64,000 nt of DNA, taken from NCBI GenBank assembly GCA_003225295.1, contig QHYZ01000054.1, forward strand, positions 62,001-126,000, given 5' to 3'. The position numbers and the translations under genes were made by a program. This document shows, in pieces, positions 10,143 to 51,181 of this stretch (the first letter of the stretch is position 1; every line of letters starts with the position of its first letter). This DNA is from Acidobacteriota bacterium. Its GTDB lineage: Bacteria; Acidobacteriota; Terriglobia; Acidiferrales; UBA7541. The notes under the pieces are model-generated. The model ran no database searches and was not told where the DNA came from. It saw only the letters and a list, made by a program, of their open reading frames with translations.

Positions 10143-10246
10143 GGAACTTCGGGCTCTGTGCAACGAGGTCCCGCGAACCCCGCCAGGCCCGGAAGGGAGC
10201 AACGGTACCGGGATCACCTCGGGTGCCGCAGACCACCCGGAGTTCC
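10143..10246 (+). ncRNA. ffs: Signal recognition particle RNA, small bacterial type (4.5S)
   Basis: The conserved domain IV apical hairpin core CAGGCCCGGAAGGGAGCA is present near 10184-10201, with the GGAA tetraloop that binds Ffh. The ends pair as a long hairpin: GGAACTTCGGG at 10143-10153 with CCCGGAGTTCC at 10236-10246. The length of about 104 bases suits the small bacterial SRP RNA. It lies about 100 bases upstream of dnaX, a common bacterial location for this gene. The exact transcript ends are approximate. Confidence 0.93.
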
Positions 10247-34640: not shown

Positions 34641-35519
34641 TTATGTTTTGTTCTCGGCGGCTTTCTGCTGACGGTAATCATAAACGCCGCGCCCGGTCTT
34701 GCGGCCCAGCCGTCCTTCCTCAACGTATTGCCGCAGCAAGGAATTGGGCCGGTACTTTTCTCCAAGGGTTTGATGGAGATACTCAAGAATCTTGAGTCGT
34801 ACGTCGAGGCCCACGAGATCGACCAACTCGAACGGGCCCATGGGGTGATTTAGCCCGAGTTTCAGGGCTTTGTCGATGTCTTCGGGCGTGGCAATTCCCG
34901 CCTCGAGCATGTTGAAAGCCTCGTTGCCGATCAAGGCGTTCACGCGCGTGGTGATAAACCCAGGAGCTTCGTTGACGATCACGACTTCCTTGCCCATGCG
35001 GCGAGCGACCTCCCGGCAGGTGACCACGGTTTCATCGGAAGTATGCGGTGTCCGGACGAGTTCGATGAGTTTCATCTTCGGTACCGGATTGAAGAAATGC
35101 ATGCCCACGCAGCGGTCACGCGAAACGGTGACGTCCGTGAAATCCGCGATCGAAAGCGAAGAGGTATTGCTTGCAAAAATGGCGCCGGTCTTGGCGAATT
35201 TGTCGAAGATGGTGAACAGTTCGAGCTTCATCTCCAACTCTTCCGGGACGGCTTCAATGATGAGCTCGGCGTCACGGATGGCGTCTCCGACGTCGCTGGC
35301 CGTCGAAATCAGGGATAGCGCCCGGTCACGGACGCTGGCGTCGACCTTGCCGCGAGTGACGCCCTCTTCGAACGACTGCCGGATCCAGGCGAGGCCCTGT
35401 TCGAGCACGGGGCGCGAGACGTCTTCGAGGACGGTGTTGTACCCGCCGAAAGCAGCGGCGTAGGCGATTCCCCGCCCCATCGTGCCTGCGCCAATCACTG
35501 CGATCGTCTTTACATCCAT
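34641..35519 (-). CDS. hbd: 3-hydroxybutyryl-CoA dehydrogenase
   Basis: The 292-residue protein starts with the NAD-binding Rossmann motif V-I-G-A-G-T-M-G-R-G-I-A and contains the S-N-T-S-S-L-S-I block, G-M-H-F-F-N-P-V-P catalytic segment with its His, and the C-terminal domain with N-H-P-M-G-P-F-E-L-V-D-L-V-G-L-D and G-R-K-T-G-R-G-V-Y-D-Y. It oxidises (S)-3-hydroxyacyl-CoA. Length is normal for the stand-alone enzyme. Two enoyl-CoA hydratase genes lie upstream on the same strand, so this is a fatty-acid or butanoate degradation cluster. Confidence 0.94.
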   Translation of the reverse strand: MDVKTIAVIGAGTMGRGIAYAAAFGGYNTVLEDVSRPVLEQGLAWIRQSFEEGVTRGKVDASVRDRALSLISTASDVGDAIRDAELIIEAVPEELEMKLELFTIFDKFAKTGAIFASNTSSLSIADFTDVTVSRDRCVGMHFFNPVPKMKLIELVRTPHTSDETVVTCREVARRMGKEVVIVNEAPGFITTRVNALIGNEAFNMLEAGIATPEDIDKALKLGLNHPMGPFELVDLVGLDVRLKILEYLHQTLGEKYRPNSLLRQYVEEGRLGRKTGRGVYDYRQQKAAENKT

Positions 35520-35544: not shown

Positions 35545-35898
35545 TCACTTCACAAGTTCCTTGTAAGCCTCTTCATCAAAGCCCAGAACCATCTGCGAAC
35601 CTCGAAGGAGCACCGGCCTGCGAATGAGATTGGGCTCCTTGGCCATCAGTTTGATGGCCTCCGCGCGAGAGGGCGGATGATCCTTCATCTTCCGCGTGCG
35701 ATAGAGCTCATTTCGTGGATTCAGGAACTCTCTGTAGTCGCCTTTGCCGATCAGTTCTTCCAGTTCGGCCCCGGTCAATCGCTGTTTATCCAAGTCGCGT
35801 GATTCCAGTTTGGCACCCATCTCCAGCAAGAGACCTCTTGCTTTGCGGCAAGTAGTTCACGTCGGCTTCTGCAGAAACTTGATTTTCACATTTGGCAA
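35545..35898 (-). CDS. ArsC/Spx-family thiol-redox protein with in-frame TGA (candidate selenoprotein)
   Basis: The conserved frame extends upstream of the TTG at 35829, where an ordinary call would begin. Reading through TGA at 35859-35857 as Sec gives 117 residues that start K-I-K-F-L-Q-K-P-T-U-T-T-C-R-K-A-R. This aligns with the CxxC active site of the ArsC/Spx family, the TGA replacing the first catalytic Cys (residue 14; second Cys 17). A TTG start at 35898 is preceded by AAGGAG (35909-35904) with a 5-base spacer; GTG 35889 is the alternative. The rest has the family's L-N-P-R-N-E-L-Y-R, P-N-L-I-R-R-P-V and V-L-G-F-D. A SECIS-like hairpin follows the TGA. A sequencing error or a pseudogene is the competing view. 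Confidence 0.75.
35825..35842 (-). promoter_or_regulatory. Candidate bacterial SECIS hairpin
   Basis: On the minus strand AGCAAG (35842-35837) and CTTGCT (35830-35825) form a perfect 6-bp stem closing the loop AGGTCT (35836-35831). The loop starts 21 bases after the TGA. From memory, the E. coli fdhF SECIS loop is AGGUCU at a comparable distance. The hairpin lies inside coding sequence, as bacterial SECIS elements do. Confidence 0.7.
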
Positions 35899-35944
35899 GC
35901 TCACTCCTTCGTTGTAGGGTTACTGCGCCCCTTGAAGACGGTTC

Positions 35945-36268
35945 CTAATATCGTGGAACTTGGGGGTCGATTTCAATCGACCAGCGCTCGATCCCACCTG
36001 CCAAAGATTTAGCTCTTTCGATACCCTGAAACCGCAGCCAAGCCGCCGCGTCTAGGCTGCGCATACCGTGATGGCAATAGCAAATCACTTCGTCCACATC
36101 CGGAAGCGTCTCGAGGCTTGCCGCCAACGTGCCAAGCGGAACGTGTTTTGCGCCCTCGATCCGGCACAAGGCGTACTCCCAGGGTTCGCGTACATCGATG
36201 AGAACTAGCTTTTCGCCCTGTTCCAAACGCGCCTGCACGTCGGCCGGCGTGATTTCTAAGTTGTCCAT
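35945..36268 (-). CDS. Single-domain rhodanese-like protein
   Basis: The 107-residue protein is one rhodanese domain: L-V-L-I-D-V-R-E-P-W-E-Y, G-A-K-H-V-P-L-G-T-L, and the active-site loop C-Y-C-H-H-G-M-R-S with the catalytic Cys, then G-I-E-R-W at the C-terminus. GlpE-type proteins of this size transfer sulfane sulfur or serve as sulfur carriers. It directly abuts the stop of the enoyl-CoA hydratase upstream and precedes the candidate selenoprotein, so a sulfur/selenium link is conceivable but unproven. Confidence 0.9.
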   Translation of the reverse strand: MDNLEITPADVQARLEQGEKLVLIDVREPWEYALCRIEGAKHVPLGTLAASLETLPDVDEVICYCHHGMRSLDAAAWLRFQGIERAKSLAGGIERWSIEIDPQVPRY

Positions 36269-37045
36269 CTATTTTCCCTTCCAAACAGGCGGGCGTTTTT
36301 CAAGGAACGCGCGAATCCCTTCCTGAGCATCTTCGGTTGGCATCAGCTCCGATAAGTATACGCGTTCTACATCCTGGAGTTGCTCTCGAAAGCCTTCGGC
36401 GTGGACACGCGTTAGGGTTCTGCGAGTCAGCCGAAGGACGGCCGGACTCAAAGCTCGTAACTGAGCGACCAAATTGTCCACCGCTGCGGGAAGCTCGGCA
36501 TCGGGAACCACGCGCGTGGCGAGACCGAGGCGGCAGGCCTCCGCCGCTCCGATTTGATTGCCCGTGAGGATCACATGCACTGCTGCGCGCATTCCAATGA
36601 GGCGTGGCAAGGTGACCATGGATACGGGAGGAAAACAGCCGAGCTTAATCTCCGGCTGGCCAAACTGCGCGGATTCGGCCGCCAGTACAAAATCACAGAA
36701 GGTGGCCAGTTCCATGCCACCGCCGAGACAGTAACCATGGACGGCGGCGATCTTTAGGCAGTCCGCGGCAAACAGCCTGCGAAAGACGGCGTGAAACGCG
36801 GAGAGCATTTTCCCCACGCGCTCCGGAGTATGATCGGCGATTTCCGCCCCACCGGAAAAGGCTTTGGGGCCCGCGCCCTGAAAAATCACGAAATCACATT
36901 GGGGAAGAGCGCGTTCCAGCACCGCATCAAGCTCCTGCATCATCGAAACGTCGAGAATGTTGAGCGGTGGGCGATGGAGCGTTATCCACGCCACTCGATT
37001 TTCGAGCCGCAGCTGAATCGTTTGATGGCCGGTGGTCATGATCAT
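36269..37045 (-). CDS. Enoyl-CoA hydratase/isomerase family protein
   Basis: This 258-residue crotonase-fold protein has the N-terminal V-A-W-I-T-L-H-R-P-P-L-N-I-L-D and the oxyanion loops F-S-G-G-A-E-I and H-G-Y-C-L-G-G-G-M-E-L-A. The second catalytic region reads F-G-Q-P-E-I-K-L-G-C-F-P-P, with one acidic residue kept. The substrate could be an enoyl-CoA or a cyclic relative, because crotonase activity varies. It ends directly at the rhodanese start, and a second hydratase gene lies 21 bases upstream. The start may be the third codon, also ATG. Confidence 0.88.
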   Translation of the reverse strand: MIMTTGHQTIQLRLENRVAWITLHRPPLNILDVSMMQELDAVLERALPQCDFVIFQGAGPKAFSGGAEIADHTPERVGKMLSAFHAVFRRLFAADCLKIAAVHGYCLGGGMELATFCDFVLAAESAQFGQPEIKLGCFPPVSMVTLPRLIGMRAAVHVILTGNQIGAAEACRLGLATRVVPDAELPAAVDNLVAQLRALSPAVLRLTRRTLTRVHAEGFREQLQDVERVYLSELMPTEDAQEGIRAFLEKRPPVWKGK

Positions 37046-50900: not shown

Positions 50901-51091
50901 TTTCCTTTTCCCGCGTTATTCTCCCGGAACCGGGAGTGCGCAGCCGAAAGCGCAAAGAAACTTCGAAATGTGAAGCCCGCGCGGCTGGCCGTCGGACACG
51001 GCGAGACGATTGAATCTCCGCTTGCAGCCATGGATCAAGGCATTGAATTGGCCTTCCAGCAATGCGGGAAAATGCTAGACTGAAGTGACTT

Positions 51092-51150
51092 TCGAGTGGC
51101 GATGGAGTTCGCCATAACCGTCCCGGTGATGTTCCCCGGTGCTGATGACT
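51092..51150 (+). promoter_or_regulatory. Fluoride riboswitch (crcB motif)
   Basis: The consensus of the crcB RNA is present in order: GGCGATGGAGTTCGCC (51099-51112) with the invariant GATGG and loop, ATAACCG, then GGTGATG and GCTGATGACTCCT. Binding of fluoride normally stabilises the pseudoknot and prevents formation of the terminator that follows. It precedes crcB by about 90 bases, the expected arrangement. The 5' boundary is approximate. Confidence 0.92.
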
Positions 51151-51181
51151 CCTGGCAGCCCAGTGGCGCCAGGAGTTTTTT
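51148..51181 (+). terminator. Riboswitch-controlled intrinsic terminator
   Basis: ACTCCTGGC (51148-51156) pairs perfectly with GCCAGGAGT (51168-51176), followed by a run of six T. The 5' arm overlaps the GATGACTCCT end of the fluoride aptamer, so aptamer folding and terminator are mutually exclusive, giving ON control by fluoride. Confidence 0.9.

Follow-up and report, generated by a model that had tools for sequence, protein, structure and literature searches.

The analysis presented here indicated that a small Spx/ArsC-like redox protein of the Acidobacteriota, bacteria that are common in soil and little studied, very probably carries selenocysteine (Sec) at a position where its relatives have Cys. 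The gene is located on the minus strand of the 64,000-nucleotide stretch of DNA that was analyzed (the window), and our comparison of sequences indicated that its UGA codon 14 is almost certainly decoded as Sec. We considered Sec to be very probable because the apparent stop codon and a Sec-insertion hairpin (SECIS) were kept together in many related genomes. As for function, we inferred that the UxxC site serves in thiol/disulfide reduction or as a redox switch, with a role in reducing arsenate less likely. Gene calling with the ordinary code would yield a shortened protein that lacks the active site.

The original prediction had placed a TGA codon at the first Cys position of the CxxC motif of an ArsC/Spx-like protein, and both the TGA and a U-T-T-C motif were present in the window (Table 1). 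The minus-strand frame from the TTG start to the terminator was open once this TGA was counted as a residue. It read KPT-U-TTCRKAR around the site, with Sec as residue 14 and Cys as residue 17. The TTG start and the AAGGAG string that had been proposed, separated by 5 bases, were also located upstream of the TGA. Finally, the 94-residue open reading frame that ordinary annotation had been expected to report, without the active site, started at TTG 35829, after the TGA.

Table 1. Features of the putative selenoprotein gene and its neighbors (window positions)
Feature	Position	Strand	Basis or remark
Putative Spx/ArsC-like selenoprotein gene	35545..35898	minus	117 residues with TGA as Sec; TTG start at 35898; terminator TGA 35547-35545
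AAGGAG ribosome-binding site	35904..35909	minus	5 bases 5' of the TTG start
TGA probably read as Sec, residue 14, first of UxxC	35857..35859	minus	TGA/Cys pairing in homologues
Codon for Cys17, the presumed resolving residue of UxxC	35848..35850	minus	invariant in 33 aligned members
Predicted SECIS hairpin with a 7-bp stem and a GGTC loop (35835-35832)	35825..35842	minus	bSECIS geometry; conservation in TGA rows
Rhodanese-domain gene, directly upstream	35945..36268	minus	neighbor annotation
3-Hydroxyacyl-CoA dehydrogenase gene, directly downstream	34641..35519	minus	neighbor annotation
Enoyl-CoA hydratase/isomerase gene, upstream of the rhodanese gene	36269..37045	minus	neighbor annotation

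Of the 89 genomes in the same family, 68 contained a homologue (E ≤ 1e-10); these yielded 72 rows, which became 71 when one split row was joined. An alignment of close homologs had been proposed as a check, and the codon at the Sec position was TGA (42 rows), TGC (25 rows), or TGT (4 rows), and nothing else, in 71/71 rows. When the results were counted by genome, 41 carried the TGA form, 27 carried the Cys form only, and none carried both. The TGA was the single stop within the match in every TGA row of this search; unrelated stops and decay in close relatives, which had been named as a sign against a selenoprotein, were not found. Because the TGA was present in 42 rows from 41 genomes, a base-call error was judged to be a very unlikely source of this codon. 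The start codon was located 11 to 15 codons 5' of the TGA in 36 of the 41 TGA rows tested, and a string resembling a ribosome-binding site preceded the start in 26 of them. The nearest named relative that we found, the metagenome-assembled genome (MAG) Acidobacteria bacterium 13_1_20CM_58_21, showed 95% identity.

In a sample of the phylum, 51 of 396 genomes contained a match (E ≤ 1e-15), including the genome from which the window came. The remaining 50 loci had TGA (21 loci) or Cys (28 loci) at the site, or were frameshifted (one locus, L115), and one of the 21 TGA homologues, the distant L152, had a TAG as well. The TGA form was present in ten family-level groups (f20, f26, f27, f31, f35, f42, f48, f72, f86, and the gene's own family, f1), and it was also found in a named Candidatus Sulfopaludibacter MAG. 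In group f25, all 24 matching genomes had the Cys form and no selA match. L115 and L152 were left out of the hairpin counts; the gene trees were built without these two and without L102 and L103, which were broken matches. The distant Cys hit from Ferruginibacter (L032) was used in the 120-row tree and A2 only, and the named loci L026 to L029 were not counted again beside L034, L040, L044, and L046.

The second line of evidence was the hairpin located 3' of the TGA. The hairpin that had been predicted was present (AGCAAGA-GGTC-TCTTGCT), with a stem of 7 bp instead of the 6 bp originally described; the stem begins 14 nt after the TGA and the GGTC loop begins 21 nt after it. According to the available part of one paper (PMC13188914), the bSECIS model has a loop of 3 to 9 nt with a G in the first two positions, a stem of 4 to 16 bp, and a loop located 16 to 37 nt past the UGA, and the window gene fit this model with its GGTC loop, 7 bp, and 21 nt. 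The loop string AGGTCT, which had been described as identical to that of fdhF, was indeed present in Escherichia coli fdhF when the gene was read from MG1655. Counting the T of the UGA as 0, the string starts at base 20 in fdhF versus base 23 in the window gene. As for chance, the two strands of the window contain 1661 TGA triplets, of which 7 were followed by a suitably spaced Watson-Crick stem of at least 7 bp with a bSECIS-type loop, and the only one of the seven with a GGTC loop was that of the window gene itself. When G-U pairs were allowed, 51 of the 1661 triplets reached 7 bp. When the window was searched against Rfam with gathering thresholds, no entry was returned at the hairpin site.

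The hairpin was tied to the TGA form. Specifically, GGTCTCTTGC followed the codon in 38/42 TGA rows of the family and in 0/29 Cys rows; the remaining TGA rows had a variant of GGTCTCTTGC (L053) or another hairpin (three rows). The longest perfect bSECIS-type stem was longer in the TGA form (62 rows, median of 7 bp) than in the Cys form (57 rows, median of 3 bp). In the 45 TGA rows of groups f1 and f20, 309 of 315 stem cells were paired; the corresponding count for Cys rows was 83 of 203, and sliding the register gave 32 to 59%. These 45 rows contained only nine distinct 18-mers, so the covariation evidence, which consisted of a single compensatory change (G-C to A-T, four rows) together with wobble changes, was thin. 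For the 11 TGA rows from distant homologues, pairing was seen at 55 of 66 cells in a register shifted by one (23 to 61% when slid), and one pair was G-C in seven rows and A-T in four. Codon choice in the stem differed from that farther along the same genes: the Arg codon was AGA in 38/42 TGA rows of the family versus 4% of Arg codons later in the same genes, and the Gly codon was GGT in 38/42 versus 18% later in these genes. Since related rows are not independent, no probability was put on the pairing and codon counts.

Two resampling tests were applied to the hairpin. The first compared the folding energy of the 39 nt 3' of the codon with that of synonymous resamplings and did not support the hairpin: only 4/62 TGA rows and 13/57 Cys rows reached p ≤ 0.05, a lean in the wrong direction. 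In our reading, GC-rich synonymous codons fold well anyway, and for that reason a test of bSECIS geometry was run, which was picked after the folding-energy result was known. In this test, 54/62 TGA rows and 3/57 Cys rows had a bSECIS stem that beat 300 synonymous resamplings (p ≤ 0.05). The p value was 0.04 for the window gene and 0.96 for L079, a TGA row without a perfect stem of more than 4 bp. We also calculated stem probabilities. The window's 44 nt alone preferred a competing structure, with a probability of 0.17 for the SECIS stem, and the probability was 0.96 when the first 12 nt were omitted, as if they were inside the ribosome. Across 45 rows, the median stem probability was 0.93 and exceeded 0.5 in 30 rows; without the first 12 nt, it exceeded 0.5 in 45/45.

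The host genome contained all four components of the Sec machinery that had been proposed for a check (selA, selB, selD, and tRNA-Sec), so the absence of this machinery, which would have spoken against the prediction, was not observed. The window is part of contig C148 of this genome, which has a size of 8.13 Mb in 385 contigs and is 96% complete. The tRNA-Sec gene was located on C56 (68.7 bits; anticodon tca according to ARAGORN), SelB with its winged-helix domains on C137 (359 bits), SelA on C5 (574 bits), and SelD on C197 (345 bits). The selD gene had one internal TGA in the context VKAAGUAAK, which we take to be the usual Sec site of SelD.

Some side observations were made on these loci. 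In selD (L022, G000:C197:16214-17179), the TGA is followed by TCCAG-GGTTG-CTGGA, a hairpin spotted by eye. An open reading frame of the phage integrase family (L001:737-1480, G000:C56) stops 16 bases short of the tRNA-Sec gene (1497-1595) on a contig of 5.2 kb, and the tRNA-Sec gene of this genome may be an integration site. Genomes G009, G027, G042, and G045 each had two tRNA-Sec matches above the cut-off.

To relate the TGA form to the Sec machinery, selA and tRNA-Sec were counted across the genomes. In the family, selA was present in 41/41 TGA genomes versus 20/27 Cys-only genomes (Fisher p of 0.0009, kinship of genomes ignored); some Cys relatives sit in genomes that retain selA. In the phylum sample, selA was found in 21/21 TGA genomes, 3/28 Cys genomes, and the genome of the frameshifted L115. 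The two sets together gave selA in 62/62 TGA genomes (41 plus 21) versus 23/55 Cys-only genomes (27 plus 28); these 62 genomes are a different set from the 62 TGA rows in which the hairpin was tested (42 plus 20, without L152). One of the selA matches, that of TGA genome G013, was a fragment under the curated cut-off. In group g12, which has Cys rows only, 5/6 genomes had no selA at the threshold used. Unlike selA, tRNA-Sec alone did not track the TGA form and was rejected for this purpose; it was listed in 33/41 TGA genomes and 19/27 Cys-only genomes of the family (Fisher p of 0.39, kinship ignored). The lack of a listed tRNA-Sec in 8/41 TGA genomes of the family may reflect incomplete assemblies and the stricter filters applied in this count.

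In the most probable account, SelB and tRNA-Sec decode UGA codon 14 under the direction of the hairpin, with its loop 21 nt downstream, and the gene product is a member of the Spx/ArsC superfamily with 117 residues and a thioredoxin fold. The Sec-Thr-Thr-Cys redox site is predicted to open the first helix. Judging from the motif and the fold, Sec14 would most likely attack a disulfide or other oxidized substrate, and Cys17 would resolve the reaction through a selenenylsulfide.

The family assignment was examined with sequence models and a structure prediction. The protein passed the cut-off of the Pfam ArsC model (PF03960; 63.3 bits versus 24). An alignment of 33 members, which we picked from the loci, had ten invariant columns; these included position 14, occupied by Sec or Cys, as well as Cys17, an Asn-Leu pair (90-91), and an Arg-Pro pair (94-95). 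An AlphaFold model built from eight sequences had a mean pLDDT of 93.1 and a pTM of 0.81, and Foldseek matched it about equally well to Spx, YffB, and ArsC-like structures. On the basis of fold and motif, the protein is probably a thiol/disulfide reductase of the YffB type rather than an Spx-type switch or an arsenate reductase.

One alternative to a YffB-type reductase is an Spx-like redox switch that putatively binds RNA polymerase and uses the Sec-Cys pair as a sensor. The profile of the 33 members had its best sequence match in Spx structures (89 bits, versus about 43 bits for E. coli ArsC), Spx chains were among the best fold matches, and the Spx/MgsR model TIGR01617 matched 33/33 aligned members at E ≤ 0.001. 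However, the window protein just missed the cut-off of this model (69.1 bits versus 75.05) and clearly missed that of the Spx model (48.1 bits versus 123), and the YffB and ArsC-like fold matches were equally good. Thus, we regard a switch as unlikely, at perhaps one chance in a few. Even less likely is a selenium-dependent arsenate reductase. The protein does belong to the ArsC superfamily according to Pfam, and UxxS ArsC selenoproteins are described in the accessible text of PMC1088965, but the score with the arsenate reductase model TIGR00014 (37.7 bits) was far from its cut-off of 106.05, and none of the five neighboring genes tested was an ars gene.

The decoding of the codon itself left less room for doubt. 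Readthrough of the UGA with another amino acid, by a near-cognate tRNA or a reassigned code, would open the frame just as well, since any residue at the TGA does so; yet the window gene itself terminates with a TGA, the TGA alternates with Cys only, and the TGA form is accompanied by a bSECIS-type hairpin and by selA in every TGA genome, so that we give this explanation very little credence. The least probable explanation, and one that we consider hardly tenable, is that the TGA is a true stop in a pseudogene or decaying gene with a dead N-terminal piece, for although the 94-residue open reading frame begins after the TGA and L152 and L115 are damaged distant relatives, every one of the 71 family rows has TGA or Cys at the site, each TGA row has one stop only, ten columns are invariant in the 33 members, the hairpin is kept, and the Sec machinery is complete.

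The distribution of Sec and Cys was then considered on trees. In the 120-row tree, the Sec/Cys label required at least seven parsimony changes (the mean of shuffled labels was 40), and the starred branches forced three of them. Several of these changes look like a conversion of Sec to Cys, on a tree that is short of columns and has an unsure root. A Cys homologue from a Terriglobia MAG (L030:855-1196) retains AGCAAAAGGTCTCTTGCT with one broken pair. This hairpin is a decayed SECIS and adds one more instance of a process already on record; SECIS remnants in Cys genes were reported earlier, according to the part of PMC1794560 that was available.

Three TGA genes of the genus-level group g11 (L079, L099, and L100, from G074, G078, and G079) hinted at a change in the other direction. 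Their hairpin has the arms GCTC...GAGC, not AGCAAGA/TCTTGCT, and 20/21 of its cells were paired in register 54 versus 32/105 in the 15 Cys rows of g11. The peptide ARQFVEQRG in L079 and L099 resembles ARQFMERRG of their Cys neighbor L081. In the gene tree, the three genes were located inside a Cys clade, with 95/84 support for their grouping with eight Cys rows; a constraint that kept all 16 Cys rows of this clade in one group was not rejected (p-AU of 0.19). In the rpoB tree, which included two of the three TGA genomes (no rpoB was found for G074), a constraint that held nine Cys rows of g11 together gave a p-AU of 0.42. A single clade of all 12 Cys genomes was rejected in this tree (p-AU of 5e-44), which rules out a single origin of Cys on the species tree that was sampled. 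We tentatively suggest, at somewhat less than even chances, that in g11 Cys first replaced Sec and that Sec subsequently returned with a newly built SECIS of another sequence and register. The alternative, that Sec was kept throughout and only the hairpin was remodeled, was not rejected. In the accessible text of PMC1794560, 33 Cys-to-Sec conversion events are claimed. A shared gene neighborhood for the Sec and Cys versions, a decayed hairpin in one Cys gene, and a candidate regain make the gain, loss, and cost of Sec testable among close relatives.

The gene neighborhood was also compared. The five neighbors tested were the genes for the rhodanese, the 3-hydroxyacyl-CoA dehydrogenase, two enoyl-CoA hydratases, and a macro-domain protein. 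In the family, a rhodanese relative was located upstream on the same strand in 30/42 TGA rows and 16/29 Cys rows, and relatives of the acyl-CoA genes were close to many rows as well. Because relatives of the five neighbors were located beside 0/50 phylum loci (E ≤ 1e-6; about 1.5 kb per side at most), the operon offers few clues to function. A scan for promoters and terminators yielded no more than would be expected by chance. Elsewhere in the window, a fluoride riboswitch (positions 51089-51161; Rfam RF01734, 39.8 bits) and a bacterial small SRP RNA (positions 10147-10245; Rfam RF00169, 71 bits) were identified.

Selenoproteins of the ArsC type have been described before. In the available portions of these papers, an ArsC-type UxxC selenoprotein appears as "arsenate reductase-like protein" (Table 1 of PMC13188914), ArsC-like selenoproteins are placed in Desulfotalea and Desulfuromonas (PMC1794560), and four selenoproteins of three families are counted for Acidobacteria and left unnamed in the text concerned (PMC1794560). 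Our search of the full-text literature, partly accessible and with most subscription journals outside its scope, did not turn up an Spx/ArsC selenoprotein described from Acidobacteria. The Global Ocean Sampling set contains 42 UxxC sequences listed as "Arsenate reductase 2" (cd03032; PMC2398784, Table 2). They share the motif and superfamily of the window protein and may be of the same kind; what sets them apart, by the description in that source only, is their origin in an ocean survey as opposed to the Acidobacteriota hosts identified here. The arsenate reductase selenoprotein of the Sargasso Sea, as presented in the accessible part of PMC1088965, resembles the window protein in belonging to COG1393 and in having Sec in a predicted redox motif, but the motif is UxxS rather than UxxC.

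Because UxxC ArsC types are in print and the ocean sequences could be of the same kind, we assigned the window protein to an already known class. It adds to the known UxxC ArsC-type selenoproteins, but its score falls far short of the cut-off of the NCBI model that describes them. This model, NF041106 (ArsC_rel_Se_1), covers the ArsC family (seleno)protein given in Table 1 of PMC13188914, which, like the window protein, belongs to the Spx/ArsC superfamily, has Sec first in UxxC, and was predicted by Sec/Cys pairing; the window protein scored 34.4 bits against its cut-off of 85, and 0/89 family genomes had a match over that cut-off. The E. coli fdhF gene has the same AGGTCT at the SECIS apex, but its stem is different and its product is formate dehydrogenase H. 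Bacillus Spx (PDB 1z3e, 3gfk, and 7f75) and YffB (PDB 1rw1) have the fold in common with the window protein, with Cys instead of Sec (in Spx, a CTSC motif at the aligned place) and 20 to 25% identity in the fold alignments. Relative to these systems, the results extend a known bacterial selenoprotein class into Acidobacteria, with a conserved and probably Sec-dependent Spx/ArsC-like protein in ten family-level groups.
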